Of a stretch of 21,464 nt of DNA, positions 702-17,970 are shown piece by piece. The notes below the pieces were generated by a model. It saw only the letters and a program-made list of their open reading frames with translations. It did no database searches and had not been told where the DNA came from. The stretch comes from a virus. The stretch covers positions 1 to 21,464 of IMG/VR virus record IMGVR_UViG_3300030085_001981. One strand, 5' to 3'. Position 1 is the first letter of the stretch. Each line of letters begins with the position of its first letter. A program made the translations under genes and the position numbers.

Positions 702-859
702 AATATATTGTTCAGTATGACAAACCCAAGAAGAAAGGCACTGCAACTCAACGTGCAACTTTCTTCGATATTCGTGACGCAATGATGTGGGAAAGACACA
801 TCAGAAACGAAACCAACTGTAAAAACGTAGAACTGGTCCCCATTTTCACAGATGTTTGA
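698..859 (+). CDS. Small basic hypothetical protein (53 aa)
   Basis: The ATG at 698 overlaps the stop of the preceding gene, and its own stop (857-859) overlaps the start of the aminotransferase at 852, so three genes are chained by overlaps. The 53-residue product starts MKYIVQYDKPKKKGTATQRA. A short beta strand, a Lys-rich segment and a helix (DIRDAMMWERHI) suggest a compact alpha/beta fold, possibly nucleic-acid binding (inference from charge only). It ends with a beta-like VELVPIFTDV segment. No known family motif is seen. Confidence in coding is good because of the frame overlaps and the plausible composition. Confidence 0.7.
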   Translation: MKYIVQYDKPKKKGTATQRATFFDIRDAMMWERHIRNETNCKNVELVPIFTDV

Positions 860-1751
860 AAGAGTTCCCTGGTACATTCACAAAGACAAAAACACCAAGA
901 TCAATCTATCAAACAACATTTGTTACGATCAGATTCACGCTCTTAAGGTAAGTGAGTTGATCCGAGAAAATGGTAATGGTTTTAGTCAATACGCCAATGA
1001 ACCAAAGATTTACGAGGATCTGAGTGAATTCTATGGTGTTCCTAAAACAAACATTGCCATTGGTATGGGTCTGGGAGAACTTGTTCCTCGGATCTTTAAC
1101 ATTTTTAGGGACAAAACTTTTTCCATTGTCACACCCACATGGATGATGGCAACAGGATTTTGTGAAGTCAACTGCATCAAATACTATCAAGGTATTGATC
1201 TTCGTGCAGATGTTCTTTATATTGCAAATCCTAACGGTCAGGATGGAAAAATCATAGAACGAGATATACTAGAGTCACTATGTGATGCTTTTGAGTATGT
1301 CATCATCGATGAAGCCTACGCAGACTTTTGCGTTCCCACCTGTTCGGTTCTCGACCTGGCTCTTACCAGAAACAACGTTCTCGTATGCAAAACTTTTAGC
1401 AAGTCTCTTGCTTTACCTGGTCTTCGCTTCGGTTATTGTTTTGGTAATCATCATGTTATTTGGAGACTTCAGCAAATACGTCCTTCGGGTGTAGTAAATA
1501 CCATTGTAGAGAGGATTGGACCTGAACTTCTCTCCCTCATTGATGAACATGTAGTGCGTATGGTTGATACCAGGGACTACATTGAATCTAAATATGAGTG
1601 TTCTCCTTCAAATGCCAACTTTGTATTGTTGAAGAACAAAGAATCTTTCTTAGATAGATTCCAATACAAAACAATCAATGGACTACATCGTATGTCTTTG
1701 ATGGATCTAGACACATTCAAATCTTATGAATCGCTATCAAACGTTCGATAA
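852..1751 (+). CDS. HisC-like PLP-dependent aminotransferase
   Basis: This 299-residue protein is a fold-type I, class I/II aminotransferase most like histidinol-phosphate aminotransferase. Visible marks are N126 in IANPNG (PLP ring contact), D153 and Y156 in IIDEAYADF (pyridine nitrogen and O3 contacts), the Schiff-base lysine K184 in FSKSLALPG, R192 in GLRFGY (PLP phosphate), and a C-terminal arginine R280 in GLHRMSL where HisC binds the substrate carboxylate. It is shorter than typical HisC (about 350 residues), and the N-terminal substrate segment reads INLSNN rather than the usual SNENP. The fold and cofactor chemistry look intact, but the substrate is uncertain. Its 3' end overlaps the radical SAM gene by 26 bases, so the two are probably co-translated and may share a pathway. 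Histidine synthesis seems unlikely, since no other his gene is in the window. Confidence 0.88.
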   Translation: MFERVPWYIHKDKNTKINLSNNICYDQIHALKVSELIRENGNGFSQYANEPKIYEDLSEFYGVPKTNIAIGMGLGELVPRIFNIFRDKTFSIVTPTWMMATGFCEVNCIKYYQGIDLRADVLYIANPNGQDGKIIERDILESLCDAFEYVIIDEAYADFCVPTCSVLDLALTRNNVLVCKTFSKSLALPGLRFGYCFGNHHVIWRLQQIRPSGVVNTIVERIGPELLSLIDEHVVRMVDTRDYIESKYECSPSNANFVLLKNKESFLDRFQYKTINGLHRMSLMDLDTFKSYESLSNVR

Positions 1752-2466
1752 AGTAGAGAACGCCGACTTAGTTAATTCAACATTGCGAAGCATCGAGTTG
1801 TGTATCACAACTGTATGTAATCGTTCGTGTTCGTTTTGCCCTCATGATTGGGGATTCAAAACTGAAGACACTAGGGAAAAATTTGTAAGTTTAGAAACTG
1901 TAGATAGGTTCATAGAATTTATATCCGAATATAAAAATCAAATTACTTTATGTGGTATGGGCGAACCAACCATACATCCACATATCAAAGAAATCCTGAA
2001 CAAGTTTCAAGAAGTCAATAACAAAGTAATTCTAGTAACTAATGGATATAAACTTCACGATGTTGTAGATCATTTGGGTCATATTCGCCCTAGAGTGAGT
2101 CTATATGAACCGATGGAACTCCCCGATATTGATATGGATGTTATCAATTACTATGAAGAAGGTGAGAATGAAAACTTCAACATGAGAGGTTATGCTGAAG
2201 GAATTGAGAAACCTTGTTATCTACCATCATACAAAATGGTTGTGGACACCACAGGTGGTATATTACCCTGTGACAATAATTGGCAAGAGATCGAATACCT
2301 TGCCAACATCTTTGATGATACGTTAGGATCAGCGTGGACTAAAAAGATGAATCCCTTCCGTATCAACTGTTCAAAAGACAGAACCCTTAACAACTATTGC
2401 CGAAACTGTGATGTCGGTGGTACTCTATATGGGTCGGAAGAAATGAAACTCCTTACCAATCAATGA
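1726..2466 (+). CDS. Radical SAM protein with SPASM-like C-terminus
   Basis: The cluster motif C-x3-C-x2-C (C31, C35, C38 in CNRSCSFC) binds the 4Fe-4S cluster that cleaves S-adenosylmethionine. GMGEP (78-81 region) stands in for the GGEP SAM-binding motif, and LVTNGY follows as the next strand. The C-terminal third has further cysteines (C164, C182 in ILPCDNNW, C215, C225 and C228 in YCRNC), resembling a SPASM or twitch domain holding auxiliary clusters. Such proteins include peptide-modifying enzymes (PqqE, anSME type) and small-molecule enzymes (MoaA type). At 246 residues it is compact, with part of the barrel apparently missing. It overlaps the aminotransferase upstream by 26 bases and the 57-residue protein downstream by 4 bases. 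The substrate is unknown. Confidence 0.88.
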   Translation: MNRYQTFDKVENADLVNSTLRSIELCITTVCNRSCSFCPHDWGFKTEDTREKFVSLETVDRFIEFISEYKNQITLCGMGEPTIHPHIKEILNKFQEVNNKVILVTNGYKLHDVVDHLGHIRPRVSLYEPMELPDIDMDVINYYEEGENENFNMRGYAEGIEKPCYLPSYKMVVDTTGGILPCDNNWQEIEYLANIFDDTLGSAWTKKMNPFRINCSKDRTLNNYCRNCDVGGTLYGSEEMKLLTNQ

Positions 2467-2636
2467 GACCAGAAACACGAAAGTCGATGGAAATGTTGTT
2501 CCATGCAAAGTGGAATCTACCCAAAGCAGCACAACATGCTAATCTCACCAATAAAGAGATGAAAATCACTTTCAATGAATACTGTGCTTTTCATCCACCA
2601 ACTTATAAGGATGAGGGACTGTCGCCTATTGGTTAA
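2463..2636 (+). CDS. Small hypothetical protein (57 aa), HTH-like
   Basis: The start codon shares ATGA with the stop of the radical SAM gene, implying coupling. The product is 57 residues. It has a basic amphipathic helix, then a segment KAAQHANLTNKEMKITFNEY that reads like a helix-turn-helix, and a short tail HPPTYKDEGLSPIG. A DNA-binding role is inferred only from this pattern. Its last 22 bases lie inside the tRNA-Ile gene, so the C-terminal residues DEGLSPIG are encoded by tRNA sequence. It could alternatively be a substrate or accessory peptide for the radical SAM protein, but no leader/core peptide signature is visible. Confidence 0.7.
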   Translation: MRPETRKSMEMLFHAKWNLPKAAQHANLTNKEMKITFNEYCAFHPPTYKDEGLSPIG

Positions 2637-2686
2637 GGCCCACTGCTTATAACGGTGTGAATCGGGTTCAATTCCCGACAGTCCTA
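2615..2686 (+). tRNA. tRNA-Ile(UAU)
   Basis: A full cloverleaf can be drawn. The acceptor stem is GGGACTG with CAGTCCT (one G-U closing pair). The D stem is GCC/GGC with a TATTGGTTAA loop. The anticodon stem is CACTG/CGGTG with loop CTTATAA, the variable loop is 4 bases, and the T arm is TCGGG-TTCAATT-CCCGA. The anticodon is TAT, reading AUA. The CCA end is not encoded, as is usual in cyanobacterial tRNAs. Most bacteria read AUA with a lysidine-modified CAU tRNA, so a UAU anticodon is uncommon. The first 22 bases overlap the preceding small CDS. Confidence 0.85.
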
Positions 2687-2690
2687 CCTT

Positions 2691-2775
2691 GCGAGTATGG
2701 CGGAATCGGTAGACGCACCAGACTTAAAATCTGTTGAGAATTAATCTCGTGGGAGTTCAAGTCTCCCTACTCGCA
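2691..2775 (+). tRNA. tRNA-Leu(UAA)
   Basis: This is a class II tRNA with acceptor GCGAGTA/TACTCGC, D stem GCG/CGC, anticodon loop CTTAAAA (anticodon TAA), a long variable arm with hairpin GAGA-ATTAA-TCTC, and T arm GGGAG-TTCAAGT-CTCCC. One outer pair of the anticodon stem (C-T) is mismatched. CCA is not encoded. It lies 4 bases after tRNA-Ile, and a radical SAM start codon follows after a single base, so tRNA 3' processing must precede or compete with translation of that gene. Confidence 0.95.
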
Positions 2776-2776
2776 T

Positions 2777-3547
2777 ATGAAAAATGTTATTATTCCACAA
2801 CTAGATTATCACATCATACACAATTGCAATTTAAGTTGTGAAGGATGTTCTGATTTTACCAATCATAATCTACCAGGAAAAATATCTATAGAAGAGGCAA
2901 GAAAAGAATATAAATTTTGGAATAAAAGAGTATTTCCCAAAGAATTTGCAATTCTAGGAGGAGAACCAACATTACATAAGGACCTTATAGAACATCTTTA
3001 TCTTGCTAGAGAGATGTGGTCATATAGTAGAATAACTCTTGTCACAAATGGATTCTTTTTGCATAGACATAAGAATCTGGGTAAAGTATTATCCGAAACT
3101 AATATCCAGATAGGATTTTCTTTACATGATGATTCGGAAGAATATATGAATAAAGTCCAAGATAATATAGATCTATGTAAGTCTTGGGAAAAAGATTATG
3201 GAATTGTTGCTCTGATCAATCATTGTTATAAGAAGTGGAATCTAATCTATAAAGGATTTGGTAATGATATAATGCCTTATGAGGATAATGATCCAGAAGC
3301 AAGTTGGAATAATTGTTTTATGGATGGAAAATGTTTTCAGTTACATGATGGTAAACTGTGGAAATGTCCACCACTAACATACTTGCCATTACTGGCAAAA
3401 AATTATAAAATATCAGACAAGTGGGATCCCTATCTAAAGTATAAAGCTTTAGATTCAGATTGCAGTGACAAACAACTCAGTGAATTTTTGAGTAGAAAGT
3501 CAGAATCAGTTTGTGCCATGTGCCCCTCCTCAAAACACTATAAATAA
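2777..3547 (+). CDS. Second radical SAM protein
   Basis: C17, C21 and C24 in HNCNLSCEGC form the C-x3-C-x2-C cluster site. GGEPT (61-65) and LVTNGF are the following SAM-domain strands. C-terminal cysteines C180, C186, C197 (LWKCPP), C246 and C249 (VCAMCP) suggest at least one auxiliary iron-sulphur cluster in a twitch/SPASM-like domain. It is 256 residues. The ATG is one base after tRNA-Leu, with no room for a normal ribosome-binding site apart from tRNA sequence. It is visibly more AT-rich than its neighbours and arginine is almost always AGA, suggesting separate or recent acquisition. It differs enough from the radical SAM protein at 1726-2466 not to look like a simple duplicate. The substrate is unknown. 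Confidence 0.87.
   Translation: MKNVIIPQLDYHIIHNCNLSCEGCSDFTNHNLPGKISIEEARKEYKFWNKRVFPKEFAILGGEPTLHKDLIEHLYLAREMWSYSRITLVTNGFFLHRHKNLGKVLSETNIQIGFSLHDDSEEYMNKVQDNIDLCKSWEKDYGIVALINHCYKKWNLIYKGFGNDIMPYEDNDPEASWNNCFMDGKCFQLHDGKLWKCPPLTYLPLLAKNYKISDKWDPYLKYKALDSDCSDKQLSEFLSRKSESVCAMCPSSKHYK
3539..3546 (+). promoter_or_regulatory. T4-type late promoter upstream of cpeT
   Basis: The sequence TATAAATA is an exact T4-type late promoter octamer (recognised in T4 by the gp55 sigma with gp33 and the clamp). It overlaps the TAA stop of the radical SAM gene and sits 17 bases before the chosen cpeT ATG at 3564, so the 5' leader would be only about 10-12 bases. This predicts late expression of cpeT. Confidence 0.55.
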
Positions 3548-3563
3548 AAGAAAATTTCTGATC

Positions 3564-4031
3564 ATGTTTGAAGAATTTTGTAGTTATTTTGAAGGTTACT
3601 TCAACAATCAAAAACAGGCATTCAATCATCCGAGAGAGTTTGCAATGATTGAACTGCAACATACTAAAGTATCTGATAATCTATTTCAAGTAACTCAGGG
3701 TTATGTAATGGATAGTGGCAATCCCTACCGAGAGGTGGAGATTGAGGTTATTGATCAACCAGAGAACGATAGGATTCTTCTTAAAACATATAAAGATGGT
3801 AAACATGTCCCTGGATGTGATTGTACCTTCCAAAGAGATGGTGACACTTTTGTAGGTGACATCACTGGTAAGAAATGTTTCGTCGAACGTGGAATCAAAA
3901 CAACTTACATGCAATCGTCTGCCATTCTTGGTGATGGTTTCTATCATGTAATTGATAAAGGATTCGATGTCGATAATGATGAACAACTGTGGGGATCTCG
4001 TCATGGTCATTTTGAATTTGACCGCAAATAA
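3564..4031 (+). CDS. cpeT: CpeT-like phycobiliprotein chromophore lyase homologue
   Basis: The 155-residue product matches the CpcT/CpeT family pattern. It has an N-terminal helix with FNNQKQA, an antiparallel beta-barrel with VTQGYV and NPYREVEIEV, then PGCDCTFQRDGDTFVG, a conserved C plus ERG around KKCFVERG, a Y in TTYMQSSA, and the end motif LWGSRHGHFEFDRK. Host CpeT helps attach phycoerythrobilin to phycoerythrin. Marine cyanophages carry a shorter version, studied from phage P-HM1, that binds bilin and may act as a chaperone. The ATG at 3564 is preferred over 3513 because family similarity starts at MFEEFCSYFEG and a late promoter lies just upstream; the 3513 start would fall inside the previous gene. 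A tRNA gene begins one base after the stop. Confidence 0.9.
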   Translation: MFEEFCSYFEGYFNNQKQAFNHPREFAMIELQHTKVSDNLFQVTQGYVMDSGNPYREVEIEVIDQPENDRILLKTYKDGKHVPGCDCTFQRDGDTFVGDITGKKCFVERGIKTTYMQSSAILGDGFYHVIDKGFDVDNDEQLWGSRHGHFEFDRK

Positions 4032-4032
4032 T

Positions 4033-4105
4033 GCCTCCGTAGCTCAGCTGGTAGAGCAGGGCTTTTGTAAAGCTCAGGTCGCAGGTTCAAGTCCTGTCAG
4101 AGGCT
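4033..4105 (+). tRNA. tRNA-Thr(UGU)
   Basis: The acceptor GCCTCCG pairs with CAGAGGC at six of seven positions (one C-A mismatch). The D arm is GCTC-AGCTGGTAGA-GC, the anticodon stem GGGCT/AGCTC has loop TTTGTAA (anticodon TGT, reading ACA), and the T arm is GCAGG-TTCAAGT-CCTGT. CCA is not encoded. It is flanked by cpeT (one base upstream) and an oxygenase start codon one base after the discriminator. The acceptor mismatch makes activity slightly less certain. Confidence 0.93.
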
Positions 4106-4106
4106 T

Positions 4107-4727
4107 ATGAATATACAGTATTTTCACGAACCATTTCCGTATATTATCGTTGATGATATGTACACGGAGAAAGAGTTGGATGATCTATGGTTAGAAATGG
4201 ATTATCTCAACGATGATAGAAGACTAACGCCTTCGAGTATCGATAAAGGTGCTGCATGGAAAGAAGGAGACAATGGAGAGAAGATTGAATTAAAGTTCAA
4301 CCTTTGTCAATATCTTGATCAATTTTTTGATGAAAGAGAATATTCGTCGATTTTAGACATCACCGAAAAATTATTTGTAAATGACCGAGAGATCATGACC
4401 AATCATGGACACTGGCATTTTGGTTGTGAAAATATAGATCGACATTCAACCCAGTTAGTTTATTATGAAAATGGAAACGAATACAAAGGTCATAGAGATC
4501 ATGCAGTCACAACTGCACTAACTTGGTTCTACAGACAACCAAAGAAATTTACTGGAGGAAATCTTCACTTTCCCGACTACGATATAAGTGTAGAACTATT
4601 AAATAATAGAGTATTAATTTTTCCTTCAGTTATTCAACATGCTGTTACTCCTGTTATAATGGATGAACAGTATCGTGGAAAAAAGTATGGAAGATACTGT
4701 ATTAGTCAATTTCTAAGAGTCTCATGA
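4107..4727 (+). CDS. 2OG-Fe(II) oxygenase, prolyl-hydroxylase-like (1)
   Basis: This 206-residue protein shows the double-stranded beta-helix metal triad H129-x-D131 (KGHRDH) and H178 (IQHAVTPV), with R196 (KYGRYCISQF) placed to bind the 2-oxoglutarate C5 carboxylate. GGNLHF and NRVLIFPS are typical intermediate strands of the prolyl 4-hydroxylase-like superfamily. These enzymes hydroxylate protein side chains or small molecules using O2 and 2-oxoglutarate. The start follows tRNA-Thr by one base, and its stop overlaps the next gene (ATGA). It resembles families common in cyanophages, whose targets are mostly unknown. Fold and cofactor assignment are firm; the substrate is not. Confidence 0.85.
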   Translation: MNIQYFHEPFPYIIVDDMYTEKELDDLWLEMDYLNDDRRLTPSSIDKGAAWKEGDNGEKIELKFNLCQYLDQFFDEREYSSILDITEKLFVNDREIMTNHGHWHFGCENIDRHSTQLVYYENGNEYKGHRDHAVTTALTWFYRQPKKFTGGNLHFPDYDISVELLNNRVLIFPSVIQHAVTPVIMDEQYRGKKYGRYCISQFLRVS

Positions 4728-5034: not shown

Positions 5035-8000
5035 ATGCCCCTAAGTAGATTAGAGAATTTCCTAAAGAATGCTGAAGGTAATATCCTGTATGTAAACCCT
5101 TCCGATTTTGATGCAACGGACAGTTACGAGAATAGAGGTAACTCGCTTACAAGACCTTTCAGAACGATTCAGAGAGCACTGATCGAATCTGCAAGATTTT
5201 CATATAGACAAGGGCGAAATAACGATAAGATTGATAGTACGACCATCCTGGTATATCCAGGCACGCACTATATCGATAACAGACCTGGGCACTCTGTAGA
5301 AGATAGTGGTGGCAGTGCTTTATTCAAAAAATATGTAAACGGTCAGTGGCAAACTCCTGGTGCAGGACTCTCCGAGTTCAATGAAAATACCAACTTTGAC
5401 ATCTTTGACGAAGAGAACGAATTATACAAATATAACAGTGTAAATGGTGGTGTTGTTCTGCCTAGAGGTACATCTATTGTAGGTCTTGACCTCAGAAAGA
5501 CTAAGATTCGCCCATTATATGTACCAGATCCTAATAATCCTGATGTAAAACCCACATCCATCTTCAGGATGACGGGTACTTGTTACTTTACTGCATTCTC
5601 CTTCTTTGATGCAGATCCAGCAAGACAAGCATATACAGACTCTACTGCTAAGAAAGTAAATCCTAAGTTCTCTCACCACAAACTATCTTGTTTTGAATAT
5701 GCTGATGGTGTTAATGATGTAATCTTAGATGGTGTACAGACAGGTATTACTGACCTGGAAATGTACTACTATAAAGTTACATTTGCATATGGAGACTCTG
5801 GTGGTAGAGCACTTGCTGATTATCCATCTACAGGCGCTCTAGACTTTGAACCATCCATCGATGAATTTAGAATTGTCGGTGATTTGAAGGCAGATCCGCT
5901 GGGTATTACTAGTATCAGATCTGGTGATGGTGTCATTCCAACTCAAGTAATCACAGTTGATACCAATAAACCACACGGACTATTCAAAGATACTCCAGTT
6001 CTAGTTGCTGGTATTAGTACCAACGTTGATGTATATAATGGTTCATTTGTTGTCGCTGATGTTTTATCAGACACTCGATTTACATATGAGTCAACATCAG
6101 TACCAACAGATCTTCTGCCCAATCAGGGTGCATATGGAAATGCATCTATTGTTGTAGAATCTGATAGTACATCTTCTGCATCTCCATATGTATTCTCCTG
6201 CTCATTAAGATCTGTATTTGGTGTTAATGGTCTACACGCAGATGGTAGCAAAGCTACTGGATTTAAGTCTGCTCTGACTGCACAGTTTACCGGCATCTCC
6301 CTCCAGAAGGACGACAATGCGTTTGTTCTTTTTGATGAAGCAACAGGTATCTACAACGATAATGACACCGTAGACGACGACCAGAAACCCTTACACACTA
6401 ATTCTAGAGCGATCTACAAACCAGAGTGGGAAAACTTCCACATGAGATGCTCGAATGATTCTATCATTCAGTGTGTTTCTATCTTCGCTATCGGTTTCGC
6501 AAAACACTTCGTTGCTGAGTCTGGTGGTGACCAATCTATCACCAACTCAAACTCCAACTTTGGTGCAATCTCTCTGGAATCTGCTGGTTTCCAGGCAAAC
6601 TCTTTTGATAGAGATGATGTAGGTTATATCACACACATTATTCCACCAAGAGAACCAGAAGCAAGAATTGCTAACATCACTTGGTTGCCTCTTGACGCAC
6701 AGAAGATTGTATCTACTGGTGCGACTTCTAAACTATGGTTAGCAAACTTCAAATCTGCTGACGTTCCACCACCATCAGAGATCGATTCCTATAAAATTGG
6801 TGGTAAGAGACAAGATCAACTTGTTCTACAAACTATCACTGGAACTGCTGTTAGTTCTTTCTATTCTCCAATTCAGATGACAGTTCCTTCGGGAATTTCA
6901 ACTGAGGCGTTCAAGACATATACAGTAGGTCGTGCTTCTGGTATTAACAGCATCTCTTCCAACATTATTACATTTACAGATTCTCACCAACTATTCAATG
7001 GTGAGAAGATTAGAATCTATTCTAATACTGGTGAAATGCCAGCAAACTTAGAAGCAAATAGAATTTATTATGCACAGACAACTGGACTAAATGCAAACCA
7101 GATTAAAATTTCTTCCAGTGTTAATGATGCAGAAGGTGGAACTAATATCACTGGAATTTCAAATGGCGGTGGTGAACTTCAAGTTCTAAGTACAGTTGCT
7201 GATAAAGTAACTGGTGAACCTGGACACCCAATTCAATTTGATGATTTTGAAAATCAGTGGTATGTAAACAGTTCTGGATCTACTTTCGTTAATGAAATTT
7301 ATACTGCTGTTACTGGTATTGGAACAATCGTTCTAGGTGAAGTAACAGGTGCTACATTTATTACTAGACAGATCGATAACAGAGGTATCGATGAAAGAAT
7401 CTATAAGATGCGTTATGTAGTTCCAAAAGAATATAAGAACGCACGTCCACCTTCTGATGGATTTATTCTTCAAGAGTCTAAGAATGTTGGTGTCGGTTCT
7501 GTTACTTTCTTTGAAACTCAGGTTAGTGATCCAACAGAACTAAGAAACCCAAGAATTATTACAAAGGCAACGTACAGTTCAGTAACTCAACGTGCTACAA
7601 TCAAAAGTGAGAAAAACCACAATTTAGTTGTTGGTGATGAAGTTGTTATTACCAATGTTCTAAGTACAAATAATCAAGCAGGAACTGCAACTTCCGCATA
7701 TAACGGAACTTATGAGGTTCACAGCATTCCTAATGAAAGAACTTTTGAAGTCTCTGTACTTACTGGAGATCCTGGAGAATTCTTAAACCTAGTAAACCAA
7801 AGAAATACTCAACAACAAGTTGAAGCACTACCAACCTTTAGAAGAAGTAGACTAAAAGATACATTATTCATTTATAGAAGTAGAGAAATTAAACCACATG
7901 TTCCTGGTGCTGATGGTCAGGATGGTATCTATGCTATTACTGCAATCTGTGGTAGTGTTTCGCCAAATGAAAATATTGGTTATGGTATTAGTTACAAGAA

Positions 8001-11807: not shown

Positions 11808-12398
11808 ATGGAAAGTAAGTATGTAGATTTTATCGGGATGTATTCAAATGTACTTCCCGATGGATTTTGTCAACACGTTATTGACCAATTTGAACACAAG
11901 AGAACTTCTTCTCATTGGGTCAAGAATAGACAAGATTGGGAAGGAAAAAGTAAAACAGTAAAACATGATGAATTCTTATTTGCAACTAATCTAAGTTTTG
12001 CTCCATGGAATGACATGGACATGTTAGATACAATAGGTGAGGGTTTGCAATGTTGTTTTAATGATTATGCTGACACATATGATGTACTGAGGGATATACC
12101 TATTCACAGTGATGCTTATAAAATTCAAAAGACTGAACCTGGTGGGGGATACCATGTATTCCACGCTGAAGCAATGAATAGAGATAGTTGCGACAGAATA
12201 TTAGTTTGGATTTTATATCTAAATGATATTGATGAGGCAGGTGAAACTGAATTCTTATATCAAAAGTTAAGAGTACCACCTAAACAGAATAGTTTGGTCA
12301 TATTTCCTGCTAATTTTGCATATGTTCATAGGGGAAATGTTGTTCACGGCGAAAGAAGTAAATATATAGTAACAGGTTGGTTCTATCATTCAAGTTAA
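11808..12398 (+). CDS. 2OG-Fe(II) oxygenase, prolyl-hydroxylase-like (2)
   Basis: The product is 196 residues from the ATG at 11808. A TTG at 11799 is in frame but overlaps the fibre stop, and the ATG is preferred. H119-x-E121 (FHAE) and H174 (AYVHRGN) fit the iron triad, with Glu replacing the more usual Asp. AGETEF and NSLVIFPANF are the family strands, and R183 or K185 (ERSKYIVTGW) could bind 2-oxoglutarate. The layout is that of the P4H-like/PKHD group. The gene sits 5 bases after the giant fibre gene and 6 bases before the collagen-like gene, so it should be co-expressed with both; either is a candidate substrate. The HxE variant is compatible with activity but not proof of it. Confidence 0.8.
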   Translation: MESKYVDFIGMYSNVLPDGFCQHVIDQFEHKRTSSHWVKNRQDWEGKSKTVKHDEFLFATNLSFAPWNDMDMLDTIGEGLQCCFNDYADTYDVLRDIPIHSDAYKIQKTEPGGGYHVFHAEAMNRDSCDRILVWILYLNDIDEAGETEFLYQKLRVPPKQNSLVIFPANFAYVHRGNVVHGERSKYIVTGWFYHSS

Positions 12399-12404
12399 TA
12401 AGTC

Positions 12405-13505
12405 ATGCCAGGTCCAATAACTAGAAAAATTTTATTCTCGGGAATGCTCGGTGCTGGTTCGGTTACGTTTAACCAACCAGGTTCATTTGTAGTTCCTCCA
12501 AGATTATACAAAGCGAAATTAGAAGGTAAGGGTAATCCTGGAAACCCAGGTAATCCTGGAAGTGCTGGTGAGAAAGGTACAAAAGGTAGTGCTAACGATG
12601 GAAATCCTGGAAAAGGTGGAGGAGGTGGCGGCGGAGGCGGCGGCACCAACAATGAAGAAGAGTCTAACCCAGGTAATGCTGGTGGAAAAGGGCAAGGTGG
12701 TGGAAGTGATTCGGGCGAAGGCGGTGGCGGCGGAGGTAAGAAAACTTTCCCGAGAGAATATCCAAATTCAGGATCATATAGGGCAGGAGCAGGTGAAGCG
12801 GGTAAATCTGGACAAAAAGGAAATAAAGGCACTGGAAATCCTGGCACCCCTGGTACTTCTGGATCATCAGGTGAAAATGGTCAAGCAGGTGAAACTGTAA
12901 AATTCTTTAACTATCAATTCCCTGGAGGAAATGCTGGAGAAGCGGGAGTAGGAAACCCAGGCAATCCTGGATCAGCAGGTCAAGGAGGATCAGCAGGTTC
13001 TGGTGGAAATGGTGGTGGAGGGGGATCTGGTGGCGGTCACCAATACAATGAAAAAGAATCGAATAGATGGGGTTATGGTTCAACCCTAAAAGGTCAAGGT
13101 GGGGGTGCCGGAAACCCTGGCGGTACTGGTGGTAATCAGGGTCAATCTACTGAAAGAGATCCTGACAACCGTGCGGATAGAAGAGTCAATGGCGGAAATG
13201 GTGGTCCTGGTGGTGCCGGCAATCCACATGGAGGTGGAACAGGTGGTAGTGGTGGCAATGCTGGAAGTAATAATAGAGAAAGATATAAAGGTGGCGGCGG
13301 AGGCGGCGGTGGAGGCGGCGGCGGTTCATCAGGCGGTACTGGAAACCAAGGAGGTAATGGACAAGATGGAACTATCAGCAAACAACCAACTAATGGTGGT
13401 ACAGCAAATGCGAAAGAATATAACATCGATACAACACCATTTGCAACATATAATGTAACTGTACCTGATGGTGGATTTGTCACCATCTCCTGGGATACTC
13501 AATAA
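12405..13505 (+). CDS. Collagen-like / polyglycine-rich surface protein
   Basis: The 366-residue product has a short N-terminal beta domain (GAGSVTFNQPGSFVVPPRLYKAKLEG). This is the start pattern of phage and bacterial Gly-rich domains. A region of about 285 residues follows that is extremely rich in Gly, with Asn, Ser, Pro and Lys, and then a C-terminal beta segment (YNVTVPDGGFVTISW). Residues 43-63 form seven uninterrupted Gly-X-Y triplets with Pro in the Y position (GNP three times), and two further stretches (about 125-160 and 175-195) do the same. Elsewhere pure Gly runs of up to 12 resemble the polyglycine II packing of T-even gp38-type tip adhesins. The likely role is a fibre tip or adhesin, inferred from this and from its position after the fibre gene. 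Minus-strand proline-rich frames across it are shadows of the GGN codons. Confidence 0.8.
   Translation: MPGPITRKILFSGMLGAGSVTFNQPGSFVVPPRLYKAKLEGKGNPGNPGNPGSAGEKGTKGSANDGNPGKGGGGGGGGGGTNNEEESNPGNAGGKGQGGGSDSGEGGGGGGKKTFPREYPNSGSYRAGAGEAGKSGQKGNKGTGNPGTPGTSGSSGENGQAGETVKFFNYQFPGGNAGEAGVGNPGNPGSAGQGGSAGSGGNGGGGGSGGGHQYNEKESNRWGYGSTLKGQGGGAGNPGGTGGNQGQSTERDPDNRADRRVNGGNGGPGGAGNPHGGGTGGSGGNAGSNNRERYKGGGGGGGGGGGGSSGGTGNQGGNGQDGTISKQPTNGGTANAKEYNIDTTPFATYNVTVPDGGFVTISWDTQ
12528..13374 (+). repeat. Gly-rich low-complexity region with collagen-type triplets
   Basis: The DNA is a run of GGN codons alternating between GGT/GGA-rich collagen-like parts and GGC/GGA-rich polyglycine parts (around 12616-12645, 12718-12735 and 13292-13324). 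Words such as AACCCAGG, AATCCTGG and GGTAATCCTGGAA recur. Such a stretch is prone to length change by slippage or recombination. Confidence 0.75.
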
Positions 13506-13508
13506 ATA
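13501..13508 (+). promoter_or_regulatory. Late promoter candidate (AATAAATA)
   Basis: AATAAATA differs from the T4 late octamer only in its first base. It overlaps the TAA stop of the collagen-like gene and lies 20 bases before the ATG at 13529, the same stop-codon overlap seen upstream of cpeT. Confidence 0.45.
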
Positions 13509-13528
13509 ACTAGAGATTTCATTTTATT

Positions 13529-13999
13529 ATGGATAACACTAATAATGAAAAAGATCTAGATGCTCAACTCGAAGAGGTGCATAAGAAACTTGAATTAAAT
13601 GCAATGCAGAGAGAATTAGCTCAAGCAGAGCAAAATGATTCTCGTGGAAGATGTTTATCTGTTGGAACTGCTGGCGGCGGAACTGTAGAAATATCGATTA
13701 GAGGAGATTATGCTAGTCTGTGGTATCAATTAAATGCCGTTGAAGGTGTAGAAATAATCAATCAACTTGCTGCTGCACTTGGTCTTGATATTGTTCATAG
13801 ACCTAGACAAGATTACGCTACCTGGAGAGGTTGGGATCCCGAACTTACTGGTGCTGCAGGTTGGGTAGGCATGGCACCTTGGCAGATGGATGATAAAGCA
13901 GTTGAAGAACTGCGAGAATATAAATCTAAAAACTTGTTCCCTGGAACTAACAATCCAAATATATTATTACCTCAACAAAATGAAACTAGACCTGAGTAA
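13529..13999 (+). CDS. Hypothetical protein with N-terminal coiled coil (156 aa)
   Basis: Residues about 5-35 (KDLDAQLEEVHKKLELNAMQ and onward) form a probable coiled coil. A compact domain follows with GTVEISIRGDYASLWYQL, a helix EIINQLAAALGL, and DIVHRPRQDYATWRGWDP, then a Trp/Gly-rich stretch and a polar tail. I do not recognise an enzyme motif. It lies in the late fibre cluster behind a late-promoter-like octamer and overlaps the following gene by 20 bases, so it may be a virion accessory or fibre-assembly protein. That is inference from position only. Confidence 0.75.
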   Translation: MDNTNNEKDLDAQLEEVHKKLELNAMQRELAQAEQNDSRGRCLSVGTAGGGTVEISIRGDYASLWYQLNAVEGVEIINQLAAALGLDIVHRPRQDYATWRGWDPELTGAAGWVGMAPWQMDDKAVEELREYKSKNLFPGTNNPNILLPQQNETRPE

Positions 14000-14513
14000 T
14001 TATTACGTTCTCTGTAATACTAAAGACAAAATAGTTGAAGGAACGATGAGTGAACTCCCAGAAAATTGGGGAGGAATCTTTAGTGTCCCTTCACTTTCTG
14101 ATGAAGAATTATATGATTTTGGATGGTTTGATAAACCAGGGCAAGGATGGGTTCGTATAGATAATCTAAAAGGATTTTCATGTACTCCAGAAACTTTAGA
14201 GAATAATAAAGAACGTCTAAGAAGACTTGGTAAAGAGACGAGAGAGAATATAGAACAACAAGGAATTGTCTGGGATGGTGTTCGTTTTGAACTGGATTCG
14301 GAAACTATTTTATTCAACAATTTCCAAAGATCTAGAGGTCAAAATATAATGAAGAACTCTCTTGGTTATCACAGAGTCAAAAATTATATCGAATTCGTTG
14401 ATAAAATGAATGCAGAATTAGATACTTTAATTGAAAACGATATAGAATTTTGCAGACAAATTGATAAAAGTAAAACTATTCATGATCTAATTAAGGTGAC
14501 ATATGACAACTAG
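13980..14513 (+). CDS. Possible tail-fibre-assembly-like protein (177 aa)
   Basis: The start is placed at the ATG at 13980, 20 bases inside the previous gene. An in-frame ATG at 13890 would create a much longer overlap and gives an N-terminus that looks like out-of-frame translation. The protein begins MKLDLSNYYVLCNTKDKIVE, then has Trp/Gly-rich segments (LPENWGGIF, GWFDKPGQGWVRI). A helical stretch follows, and IVWDGVRFELDSETILFNNF resembles the segment seen in phage fibre-assembly/DUF4376-type proteins. The C-terminal 70 residues are helical. Its placement after the fibre and adhesin genes supports a chaperone role, but the similarity is weak and the call is tentative. Confidence 0.65.
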   Translation: MKLDLSNYYVLCNTKDKIVEGTMSELPENWGGIFSVPSLSDEELYDFGWFDKPGQGWVRIDNLKGFSCTPETLENNKERLRRLGKETRENIEQQGIVWDGVRFELDSETILFNNFQRSRGQNIMKNSLGYHRVKNYIEFVDKMNAELDTLIENDIEFCRQIDKSKTIHDLIKVTYDN

Positions 14514-15159
14514 TGATTATTTTTGTTATGAAGAAACATTCAACGATCTCAACTTTGAAGATATAGGTTCGGGTGGAGATAGATGGTATCTACAAACTAA
14601 ATCAAATCTAACGTGGATTACTGTTCAAGATGAACTTACGAATGCCGATATTACTAAAATCAAATTTTGTGGTAATCATGCAGTTTTTGATGATGCTGTC
14701 GTAGGATCTTCAAACAAAGTAAATTCTGACATAAGAATAAGTCAAGTATCTTGGTTACCACCAAATTCATATAACGATTGGTTGTATAGAAAACTTACAG
14801 GCATAGTAAACGATGTAAACAATAGTTTTTTTGAATATGACTTGGAGTTCATAGAAACATTACAGTTCACAAAATATGTGGGCACTGTTGATTCTTATTA
14901 TGGTAAACACACAGATCCAAGAATTGGTGATGTTTTAGAACCAAAGCACAGAAAACTAAGTTTTGTTGTTCAGTTATCAGATCCAAAAGATTATGAAGGA
15001 GGAGATTTAGTATTACATTTTGGGGAACCACATATTGTACCAAAAAGAAAGGGAGATATAGTATTCTTCCCCTCACACACATTGCATGAAGTAACACCAG
15101 TAACTAAGGGAACACGTTATACATTGGTTGGTTGGGTATGTGGAGATAAAATGAAATGA
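14503..15159 (+). CDS. 2OG-Fe(II) oxygenase, PKHD-type (3)
   Basis: The product is 218 residues. H136-x-D138 (GKHTDPR) and H195 (TLHEVTPV) form the iron triad, and R205 (GTRYTLVGW) is the 2-oxoglutarate arginine. GGDLVLHFG and KGDIVFFPSHTLHEVTPV closely follow the PKHD hydroxylase pattern related to prolyl 4-hydroxylases. The N-terminal 80 residues are family-variable. The start overlaps the previous gene by 11 bases with AAGGTGA just upstream, and the stop overlaps the next oxygenase gene by 4 bases, so at least three late genes are translated as a chain. Of the four oxygenases in the window, this has the most canonical motif set. Confidence 0.9.
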   Translation: MTTSDYFCYEETFNDLNFEDIGSGGDRWYLQTKSNLTWITVQDELTNADITKIKFCGNHAVFDDAVVGSSNKVNSDIRISQVSWLPPNSYNDWLYRKLTGIVNDVNNSFFEYDLEFIETLQFTKYVGTVDSYYGKHTDPRIGDVLEPKHRKLSFVVQLSDPKDYEGGDLVLHFGEPHIVPKRKGDIVFFPSHTLHEVTPVTKGTRYTLVGWVCGDKMK

Positions 15160-15710
15160 ATATACATGTTGTTAGAGAATTTTTAGATCTGGACTTCTTA
15201 AAGTTTGTAGAACAGTATTACATTCTTAAAATTAAAACAGGCAAAGATCTAGATTACGGTGACGTACAGGCACCGAAGGCTATTAGAATGTGGGGAGATC
15301 TTGTAGGGGAAACTATACTCAAACTATCTACAAATAAGATTAGTGAGATCTATGGGAAAGAATTATACCCAACATATTCTTTTACGAGGTTATATCATCA
15401 GGGAGATGAACTTGTAAGACATGTAGATAGATCATCTTGTGAATACTCTGCAACAATATGTTTAGCATCACCACAAGGAGAATCTTTGTCTTCCATATAT
15501 TTTGAAACTGAGGATGAAATCAAAGAACTAATACTTAAACCAGGAGATCTATGCACATACAAAGGATGTGAGATACCTCATTGGAGAGAACCATTAGAAC
15601 AACCTTGGTTATTGCAACTATTTCTACATTATGTTGATGCCAATGGAGAATATAAAGACAGAAAGTATGATGGGAGAGAGTGTCTGGGACAAAACAGTAT
15701 CTGGGAGTGA
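15156..15710 (+). CDS. 2OG-Fe(II) oxygenase-like protein (4)
   Basis: The product is 184 residues. H89-x-D91 (LVRHVDRSSCEYSATICL) and H142 (PHWREPLEQPW) fit the iron triad of the double-stranded beta helix. LKPGDLCTYKG is the strand before the distal histidine, and LQLFLHYVDANG is the last strand. The 2-oxoglutarate arginine is not obvious. This is a subgroup distinct from the other three oxygenases and resembles a form found in cyanobacteria and cyanophages. It overlaps the preceding oxygenase by 4 bases. Two tandem, dissimilar oxygenases suggest either successive modifications of one target or a complex. The substrate is unknown. Confidence 0.8.
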   Translation: MNIHVVREFLDLDFLKFVEQYYILKIKTGKDLDYGDVQAPKAIRMWGDLVGETILKLSTNKISEIYGKELYPTYSFTRLYHQGDELVRHVDRSSCEYSATICLASPQGESLSSIYFETEDEIKELILKPGDLCTYKGCEIPHWREPLEQPWLLQLFLHYVDANGEYKDRKYDGRECLGQNSIWE

Positions 15711-16329: not shown

Positions 16330-17970
16330 ATGTGTGGAATCGGATTAGTTTTCTCAAAAAAAGAAAAAATCCATCACAATTTAATAAGAATTGCCGAAGA
16401 CGATTTGGGTCTTCGTGGACCTTCTCATGCAACACATTATCTTGGTGATGATGTTTACATGTATCAATCTGTTCTAGCAGTTCAGACTGATTCAGATCGA
16501 GAAGATAGAATTGCTACATTGCCACAAAATTTTGACATCACACTATACAATGGTGAGATATATGACAATCATGAGTATGATAGTGATACAGAGTTAATCA
16601 ACAAAACAGATAAACAACTGATTTTAGGTCGTTGTGATGGCATGTTTGCTGTTATTCATGCACAACGCCATGGATCTTGGTTTGATGTGAGTGCCTATAG
16701 AGATATTGTAGGTGAGAAGAGACTATTTTATTATGATAGTCCTAGAGTATTGATTCTTGCATCTACACCTTCTTTTATCTTAAAAGTGATGGAAGAATAT
16801 GATGAACCAGTAGAATTAAATGAGACAAGTCTTAAAGACTATTTTGTGACTAGACATCATGTCGCTAATAACACTGGTATCAAGGGAATATATCAACTGC
16901 CCGCAGGATCTAAGTATCATTTCAACAAATATAGTTCTGTTCAGAAGATATGGACAGCAAGAAAGTATCTCAGTAGTGAATTAACAAGAGAACTTAATAA
17001 GACAACGTTTGGTCAATACACATCATATTTGCATGAGTTATTGTCTAGAACTCTTAGGAAGATGCACTCTTCTGTAAAGAGTCATGTACCCACCTATTCT
17101 ATAGTTTCTGGTGGTATTGATTCTTCTATGGTCACATCACTGTTAGAGTCCAATGGCATACAGATAGAGAGGGGAATTACTCTCACATTTGATGAGAAAG
17201 ATTGCGTTGCATTATTTGCTGATAAACTGTTTGATTCTTTATACACAAATCAATTAGTCAGAAATATAGACAGAGAGAGTTATCATGAATCATATTTGAA
17301 GACTCTTAAGTTATGTTGTGCTCCCATCAATGCACACGACTTTCCATCAGCAAGTCTTTTATATGAAATGTTAGAACCTGGATCAATCATCTATGGTGGT
17401 GATGGTGCAGATGAACTATTTCTTGGATACAAGTATTATCAGAACTGCATAAAGTCACAGTATGCTATGCCTGTGCGAAACAATTTTAAGTTGTCCATCA
17501 TGGAAGAAGTGCAGGAAGATTATGACTATGTGTTTGATTTCTTTATGAGTAACATGTATTCAACGAAAGATGCACACATTAAAGCATGTTCATTCGTAGA
17601 TTTCTTCTATCAGTTATCAAATACTTCTCTGTATTGTTCTGATCTTATTGGTTCTAGTCATGGTGTAGAGTGTAGAACACCATTTACTAGAAAAGAAGTT
17701 GTGACTTATGCACTCAACTCTCCACCATATTTGTTAGAGAACAAAAGACCACTATCTGCAATCTTTGAAGATTGTTTCAAACGTAGACCATTTGCTAAGA
17801 TTGGATTTAGTGGGCATCCTAACGAAATGTATCGTTACTTAGAGAAAGGAATTGACAAGAGTTATGACATTTTTGGTAGTTATATCAATGGATCTCACTC
17901 AGGAAGAGATGTAGAGTGGAAATATATCAACACTGAATTTTTCCTTGACACTTTTATGTTTTCGCCCTAA
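16330..17970 (+). CDS. asnB: Glutamine-dependent asparagine synthetase homologue
   Basis: The 546-residue protein is close to the length of bacterial AsnB. The N-terminal class II glutaminase has the nucleophile C2 (MCGIGLVF), RGPS (29-32), N74-G75-E76 (LYNGEIYD) and DSDTE near 84-88. The C-terminal synthetase has the pyrophosphate loop SGGIDSS (260-266) and GGDGADELFLGY (356-367). The family reaction is aspartate + glutamine + ATP to asparagine + glutamate + AMP + pyrophosphate. By my reading, the arginine that holds glutamine in E. coli AsnB (R49, in RLSIVD) is replaced by Val in SVLAVQTD, so glutamine use may be altered. Members of this superfamily also amidate sugars or make lactams. It could thus support asparagine supply or modify a phage or host molecule. 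Confidence 0.9.
   Translation: MCGIGLVFSKKEKIHHNLIRIAEDDLGLRGPSHATHYLGDDVYMYQSVLAVQTDSDREDRIATLPQNFDITLYNGEIYDNHEYDSDTELINKTDKQLILGRCDGMFAVIHAQRHGSWFDVSAYRDIVGEKRLFYYDSPRVLILASTPSFILKVMEEYDEPVELNETSLKDYFVTRHHVANNTGIKGIYQLPAGSKYHFNKYSSVQKIWTARKYLSSELTRELNKTTFGQYTSYLHELLSRTLRKMHSSVKSHVPTYSIVSGGIDSSMVTSLLESNGIQIERGITLTFDEKDCVALFADKLFDSLYTNQLVRNIDRESYHESYLKTLKLCCAPINAHDFPSASLLYEMLEPGSIIYGGDGADELFLGYKYYQNCIKSQYAMPVRNNFKLSIMEEVQEDYDYVFDFFMSNMYSTKDAHIKACSFVDFFYQLSNTSLYCSDLIGSSHGVECRTPFTRKEVVTYALNSPPYLLENKRPLSAIFEDCFKRRPFAKIGFSGHPNEMYRYLEKGIDKSYDIFGSYINGSHSGRDVEWKYINTEFFLDTFMFSP

Follow-up and report, generated by a model that had tools for sequence, protein, structure and literature searches.

Oxygenase genes form a conserved cassette with a glycine-rich, putative tail-tip protein in two phage backgrounds

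Introduction

In the T-even-type adhesin gp38 of phage S16, two extensions of a beta-helix form a polyglycine sandwich (PDB 6F45; PMC6851490), and in the snow-flea antifreeze protein (2pne) a Gly-X-Y sequence forms a bundle of polyproline-II helices (PMC8409303). Prolyl 4-hydroxylases (P4Hs) are also encoded by viruses. One is known from Chlorella virus PBCV-1, a eukaryotic virus (Eriksson 1999, cited in PMC9301287), and according to a survey of Baltic viruses, the viral use of prolyl 4-hydroxylase "remains cryptic" (PMC9301287). Here, we analyze a gene cassette that encodes a glycine-rich protein, GR, together with P4H-like and other Fe(II)/2-oxoglutarate (2OG) oxygenases. The cassette lies in the 21.5-kb virus record IMGVR_UViG_3300030085_001981, the whole of which is called the window below. 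The window carries T4-like late genes, and a cyanophage origin is suggested by its CpeT gene and by the families of its tail fibre.

GR resembles S16 gp38 in being encoded right after the tail fibre, in the beta core with two glycine-rich extensions (18 and 77 residues long in S16, predicted in GR), and in the placement of Pro at Y of G-X-Y. The two proteins differ in that no sequence match exists between them and in that gp38 attaches to gp37 via an N-terminal helical domain with Trp residues, whereas GR has no such domain; no helix is predicted in GR, and none of its N-terminal family motifs is helical (AlphaFold2, alignment). The gp38 loci that we examined adjoin fibre and holin genes, whereas GR always occurs with oxygenases. 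The snow-flea antifreeze protein likewise has Pro at Y only, but it is an unrelated animal protein without a beta core, and its Asn is not biased to X. A prior description of an oxygenase–GR cassette was not found in the open-access literature, with subscription papers not covered.

Results

In the window, the cassette genes OxyA-GR-X-Y-OxyB-OxyC are all on the + strand, almost abut one another, and lie 3′ of the gene of a 2255-aa tail fibre protein (Table 1). OxyA ends with its stop codon 6 bases ahead of the GR start, and OxyB and OxyC follow downstream, so that the P4H-like gene in front of GR and the two further oxygenase genes of a preliminary description of this locus were all recovered. 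Relatives were collected from viral contigs with three entry genes. OxyA had 515 relatives, and a glycine-rich G-x-P protein of the GR type was encoded in 80/80 of the contigs fetched (45–55% identity), mostly directly downstream; as this count covers the best 80 of 515, exceptions among more distant relatives remain possible. The GR alignment retrieved 14 loci, 12 of which contained OxyA, and the two others (L097 and L100) are truncated or partial and carry OxyB/OxyC or OxyC-X-Y. The third entry gene, X, encodes neither an oxygenase nor a glycine-rich protein; it had 344 relatives, from which 79 loci were fetched, and both GR and OxyA were present in 62/62 loci in which the DNA 5′ of X spans at least 4.3 kb. 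The three sets have some contigs in common and contain many near-copies, and the counts are thus not fully independent.

T4-like contigs have the order fibre-OxyA-GR-X-Y-OxyB-OxyC. In a second background, which was set apart as not T4-like by flanking PHROG matches alone, the order is fibre-OxyD-OxyB-OxyA-(OxyC)-GR-X-Y, and the flanks encode an endolysin as well as virion proteins that fall into other PHROGs; in L115, OxyA is located downstream. Cassette membership was kept although the gene order differs between the two backgrounds. It is firm that GR, OxyA, X, and Y constitute a conserved cassette to which OxyB also belongs and, in many cases, OxyC or OxyD, so that the oxygenases number two to four. 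In one locus (L128), an X-Y set stands on either side of oxygenase genes and GR; this is a tandem cassette duplication whose first copy is cut by the locus end.

The phrog_7760-type C-terminus of the window fibre is also present in the fibre of the second phage background (L066). A fibre with a related C-terminus is encoded directly upstream of the cassette in 57/78 loci with upstream DNA, at a median gap of 31 bp, and this C-terminus was not found next to isolate-type oxygenases. In the other 21/78 loci, the upstream fibre had no recognised related C-terminus, and GR was still present. We propose the C-terminal domain of the fibre (residues about 2088–2250) as the attachment end for GR. Y belongs, as judged by its family, to the tail-fibre-assembly type (chaperones such as PF16778 Phage_tail_APC and DUF4376): 13/25 family members match PF16778, at E=1.8e-16 in the best case, as well as tail fibre assembly families of PHROG. 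These PF16778 matches come from Y of one background, whereas the T4-like form of Y, to which the window copy belongs, has only the N-terminal half in common, and the window Y itself matches neither PF16778 nor any other Pfam family. X had no match in PHROG, Pfam, or 50,697 phage records, and a single-sequence query with X found nothing in a collection of bacterial and archaeal genomes. Its AlphaFold2 model shows a long N-terminal helix followed by three strands and a helix, i.e., a small alpha/beta domain, without a significant fold match (PDB included).

It could be argued that the late region merely houses the oxygenase genes as auxiliary metabolic or nucleic-acid genes unrelated to GR, as there are many 2OG oxygenases in marine phages, their PHROG class is that of auxiliary metabolic genes, and the window also contains radical-SAM, aminotransferase, CpeT, and asparagine-synthase genes. 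However, cargo would not be expected to accompany the same glycine-rich gene, assembly protein, and orphan family without exception across backgrounds and gene orders, and this explanation is hence very improbable.

The best OxyA matches in phage records are about 35–37% identical (among the matches listed). No GR, X, or Y was found near seven OxyA relatives, namely those of S-CAM1, S-CAM3, S-RSM4, S-SCSM1, HTVC027P, AG-345-P14, and AG-345-O18. In a tree of OxyA sequences (n=53), the seven GR-less relatives are separated from the 46 cassette enzymes by a branch with an SH-like approximate likelihood ratio test (SH-aLRT) value of 98, and long branches in the isolate set leave the finer placement unsure. 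The preliminary description had called for a survey of co-occurrence and had seen its idea at risk if the oxygenases were equally common without a Gly-X-Pro protein. Inside the cassette clade, the association is complete in the OxyA and X counts given above, but the 35–37% identical oxygenases of cyanophages and pelagiphages occur without such a protein. As a separate case, Pelagibacter phage HTVC023P encodes another glycine-rich tail-region protein (gp70; L087, 10051–10977), which is devoid of G-x-P-G, next to an oxygenase (gp71).

Isolate cyanophages and pelagiphages speak for the main alternative, namely that GR is a gp38-type polyglycine-II adhesin while the oxygenases act on the adjacent fibre, on X or Y, or on a host surface component; the genes would then be linked because they are exchanged together, as a tail-tip module, in host-range changes. 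In these isolates, related enzymes are encoded next to tail fibre genes although GR is absent, which implies that the enzyme family needs no GR, and tail-tip genes are often swapped as modules. On the other hand, the linkage was found from three entry genes, albeit in overlapping sets, it survives reordering, and GR stays in the 21/78 loci in which no related fibre C-terminus was recognised. We consider this alternative unlikely but worth serious attention.

OxyA and OxyB match PF13640 with scores of 42.6 and 60.3 bits, both above the Pfam cut-off of 27. In OxyA, H119-x-E121, H174, and K185 (numbered from the ATG) are invariant in 18 relatives, and we propose from the residue pattern that H119-x-E121 and H174 are the ligands and that K185 binds 2OG. 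The nearest solved proteins in profile searches are Bacillus P4Hs (B. anthracis P4H, 3itq/5hv0, E=2.3e-5), in which, as in OxyA, a Lys follows the distal His by 11 residues. As Glu replaces the Asp of HxD, OxyA is not classed as a collagen-type P4H, though it may work like one. In OxyB, H136-x-D138, H195, and R205 are invariant in 14 members, and the nearest solved proteins by profile are the PKHD-type hydroxylase 3dkq (E=4.2e-15) and PiuC. With 70.7 bits, OxyB stays below the NCBIfam PKHD-type equivalog cut-off of 143, which indicates that it shares the superfamily of these hydroxylases and is not an equivalog.

OxyC gave no significant Pfam match, and its profile matched solved 2OG oxygenases weakly (SptF and Tet-like, E 0.14–0.7). 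H89-x-D91 and H142-W-R are invariant in 12 members of its family, and both are lost in L005 (10221–10814), whose OxyC copy, in an otherwise complete cassette, is probably a dead or repurposed enzyme. The PHROG label of OxyC is "ferrochelatase", which looks like a mis-annotation. In Pelagibacter phage Mosig (L088, 7045–10900), several adjoining 2OG oxygenases beside tail fibres are annotated as "ferrochelatase" and "DNA endonuclease V", and these annotations look wrong because the members keep oxygenase motifs.

Glycine makes up 34% of the 366 residues of GR. The protein contains eleven G-x-P triplets, nine of which are GNP, the others being GTP and GGP; three GNP triplets lie at residues 43, 46, and 49, and further GNP/GTP triplets are at 66, 144, 147, 183, 186, 236, and 272. 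Between residues 41 and 330, Gly-Gly spacings of 3 (z=7.6) and 6 (z=4.9) are above shuffled sequences, with the other spacings at about chance. The triplet pattern is therefore real, in agreement with the Gly-X-Pro runs that had been reported before. The longest strict G-X-Y run comprises seven triplets, and runs alternate with poly-Gly blocks; in some relatives, the runs are longer and reach up to 39 triplets (L045). Among 56 non-redundant GR proteins, Pro is found at Y 583 times versus 38 times at X, Asn is found at X 849 times versus 92 times at Y, and the commonest triplet is GNP (393/1772). Pro is commoner at Y than at X in 54/56 of these proteins. One cassette (L096) contains two GR-type genes in tandem (5541–6446 and 6450–7289).

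The alignment of the GR family (A1, 26 members) has the invariant residues V353 and W363 and the consensus ALGxxFPGGAGG. Except for one weak collagen match, the family matched nothing in Pfam, PHROGs, and NCBIfam; this match to Pfam Collagen concerns 1/26 members (E=0.003), and the window GR has none. A full-length tblastn search with GR in phage records found nothing, which is a weak search as low-complexity masking hides GR, and a single-sequence pattern search in viral contigs also found nothing, whereas the alignment query found the 14 loci described above.

GR was modeled by AlphaFold2 with 26 sequences. The predicted local distance difference test (pLDDT) score exceeded 90 for parts of residues 20–50, 161–180, and 331–360, all of which are strands. 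By 10-residue block, it was about 77–97 for residues 11–55 (strands 18–22, 26–29, and 36–42), and it was 87–96 for residues 151–180 (strands 165–167 and 170–172) and about 93–96 for residues 331–360 (strands 337–342, 348–352, and 358–363). Because these three separated segments are each modeled at high confidence, the model suggests that a single beta core is built from all three, and hence that the glycine-rich parts (residues about 56–150 and 181–325) extend from the core and return. A fold search of a viral protein library with this model yielded mainly phage "glycine-rich domain-containing" proteins, a type of tail protein of which UniProt/BFVD contain many, as well as two unnamed viral proteins (E=2.4e-7 and 1.8e-6). 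GR differs from the glycine-rich domain-containing proteins in that it stays below the threshold of the Pfam glycine-rich models, trimmed termini included.

The glycine period of 3, Pro at Y, the P4H-like neighbor, and the up to 39 triplets in L045 would also be expected if 4-hydroxyproline stabilised a collagen triple helix in GR. Such a helix is nevertheless quite unlikely, as strict runs in the window GR have at most seven triplets and are broken by poly-Gly, the N-terminal, central, and C-terminal segments are predicted as strands of seemingly one beta core, and the Pfam collagen model is reached by only one family member. Moreover, Pro is nearly absent from X in GR, which is opposite to the collagen-like fibre near the cassette in L004 (134 at X and 11 at Y). 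The earlier designation of GR as collagen-like thus gives way to a predicted beta core with two long glycine-rich excursions, which is not a triple-helical rod. True collagen-like fibres with 34–148 Gly-X-Y triplets are encoded near cassettes in L004 (1280–5971), L017 (891–5570), and L074 (2–3574 and 10995–12377); some of them are GPQ-rich, with Pro at X, and some are of an SGY type without Pro.

Collagen P4Hs require at least the motif X-Pro-Gly, which the Pro-at-Y pattern of GR fits. We rejected Pro at Y as a proof of hydroxylation after gp38, the antifreeze protein, and other glycine-rich proteins had been used as controls. In nine T-even gp38 adhesins, Pro occurs 0 times at X and 9 times at Y, and in the antifreeze protein the respective numbers are 0 and 3; hydroxylation is not known in either. 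The weight that the preliminary description had put on the Pro position can thus not be maintained, and Pro at Y in an unmodified polyglycine-II protein is what would be expected if the oxygenases acted on other targets. The density of G-x-P-G per 100 residues is 3.2–3.5 in GR and 0.8 in T-even gp38, a 4.5-fold difference, and about 0.5 in four other glycine-rich open reading frames, one of which (L082) is itself a GR copy whose start was mis-set. In the antifreeze protein, the value is about 3.8 (3 in 79 residues). With regard to hydroxylation, this density is supportive, not decisive.

Table 1. Positions of the cassette genes, the upstream fibre gene, and segments of GR in the window
Feature	Position	Strand	Basis
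Tail fibre protein, 2255 aa	5035..11802	+	phrog_529 and phrog_4527 tail fibre; C-terminus phrog_7760
OxyA, P4H-like Fe(II)/2OG oxygenase	11808..12398 (ATG 11808, stop ends 12398)	+	PF13640 E=1.2e-10; phrog_61
GR, 366 aa, Gly-rich, proposed tail-tip protein and proposed oxygenase substrate	12405..13505	+	Composition, period, conserved family A1 (26 members)
GR residues 11-55, predicted beta-core strands 1-3 and first GNPGNPGNP block	12435..12569	+	AlphaFold2
GR residues 150-180, predicted central beta hairpin between two Gly-rich excursions, family motif FPGGAGG	12852..12944	+	AlphaFold2, family alignment
GR residues 325-366, predicted C-terminal beta-core strands, family motif YPITVxxGGFVTISWNxQ	13377..13502	+	AlphaFold2, family alignment
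X, conserved cassette protein, RARSxTVGT...PRxDFxSWRxW	13529..13999	+	25-member alignment
Y, putative tail-fibre-assembly-type protein, 177 aa	13980..14513	+	Family matches to PF16778 and PHROG tail fibre assembly families
OxyB, PKHD-type 2OG oxygenase	14503..15159	+	PF13640 E=3.6e-16
OxyC, putative divergent double-stranded-beta-helix oxygenase	15156..15710	+	Invariant H89-x-D91, H142-W-R in family

The window contains a fourth 2OG oxygenase gene apart from the cassette (4107–4727), with a CpeT-like antenna gene and tRNA-Thr alongside (3513–4727). A gene just 3′ of the cassette (16330–17970) resembles asparagine synthase genes (PF00733, E=3.2e-19) and also encodes a glutamine amidotransferase domain; Asn makes up about 10% of the cassette glycine-rich proteins, and a tie to this neighbor is speculation. 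At 852–3547, a class I/II aminotransferase gene (PF00155) is followed by two radical-SAM genes, one of which includes SPASM; tRNA-Ile and tRNA-Leu separate the two, and the whole resembles a small biosynthetic cluster.

Discussion

We favor, at somewhat better than even confidence, the view that GR is a polyglycine-II fibre-tip adhesin that is hydroxylated by the linked oxygenases. GR would be part of the virion and cap the fibre of the adjoining upstream gene at its distal end. Its two long glycine-rich stretches would leave the small beta core and return as left-handed polyglycine/polyproline-II helices with Pro and Asn at fixed Gly-X-Y places (GNP), Y would aid the folding or attachment of GR, and X would be a dedicated accessory. 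During assembly, OxyA would hydroxylate the X-Pro-Gly prolines of GR, and OxyB, OxyC, and OxyD could hydroxylate Pro, Asn, or other residues, which may stiffen the helices or alter the exposed, receptor-facing surface. This view agrees with the linkage found from the OxyA, GR, and X entries, the survival of the cassette upon reordering, the family of Y, the kept catalytic residues, and a P4H as the nearest solved relative of OxyA.

Several points weigh against it. OxyA-like enzymes also adjoin tail genes without GR in cyanophage and pelagiphage records, and hydroxylation of GR is not observable by sequence analysis. The similarity of OxyA to known P4Hs is weak, and OxyA has HxE and not the usual HxD of viral and bacterial P4Hs, with Glu for Asp in 18/18 sequences. 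As for the fold, the pLDDT was below 50 over most glycine-rich residues, and a PDB fold search with the GR model gave no significant match. Because gp38 and the antifreeze protein also place Pro at Y, this position is a property of the polyglycine-II fold and does not identify a substrate. Finally, GR did not differ significantly between loci with and without OxyC in Pro (p=0.066), Asn (p=0.96), or G-x-P-G (p=0.63). Gly, Ile, Asp, and the length of GR differed nominally (p 0.005–0.013, uncorrected, with about 25 features compared and phylogeny ignored), and as these differences are nominal only, a target of OxyC cannot be named.

A wider claim, namely that in bacteriophages of natural waters a dedicated multi-enzyme oxygenase cassette hydroxylates prolines and possibly asparagines of a polyglycine-type tail-tip adhesin and has no counterpart among the phage records searched, is tentative, and we rate its chances as slightly below even. 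In annotation, caution is advisable, as a Gly-X-Pro phage protein is not always a collagen, and the same holds for the PHROG label "ferrochelatase" of the OxyC family. P4H-like and other 2OG oxygenases are common in marine and freshwater phages, and the cassette offers a concrete, testable substrate for them. If the hydroxylation of GR holds true, phage adhesins would be matured enzymatically after translation, and this would be a novel route by which a phage completes its host-binding parts. Host range could then depend, beyond the adhesin sequence, on oxygen, iron, and 2-oxoglutarate within infected cells.

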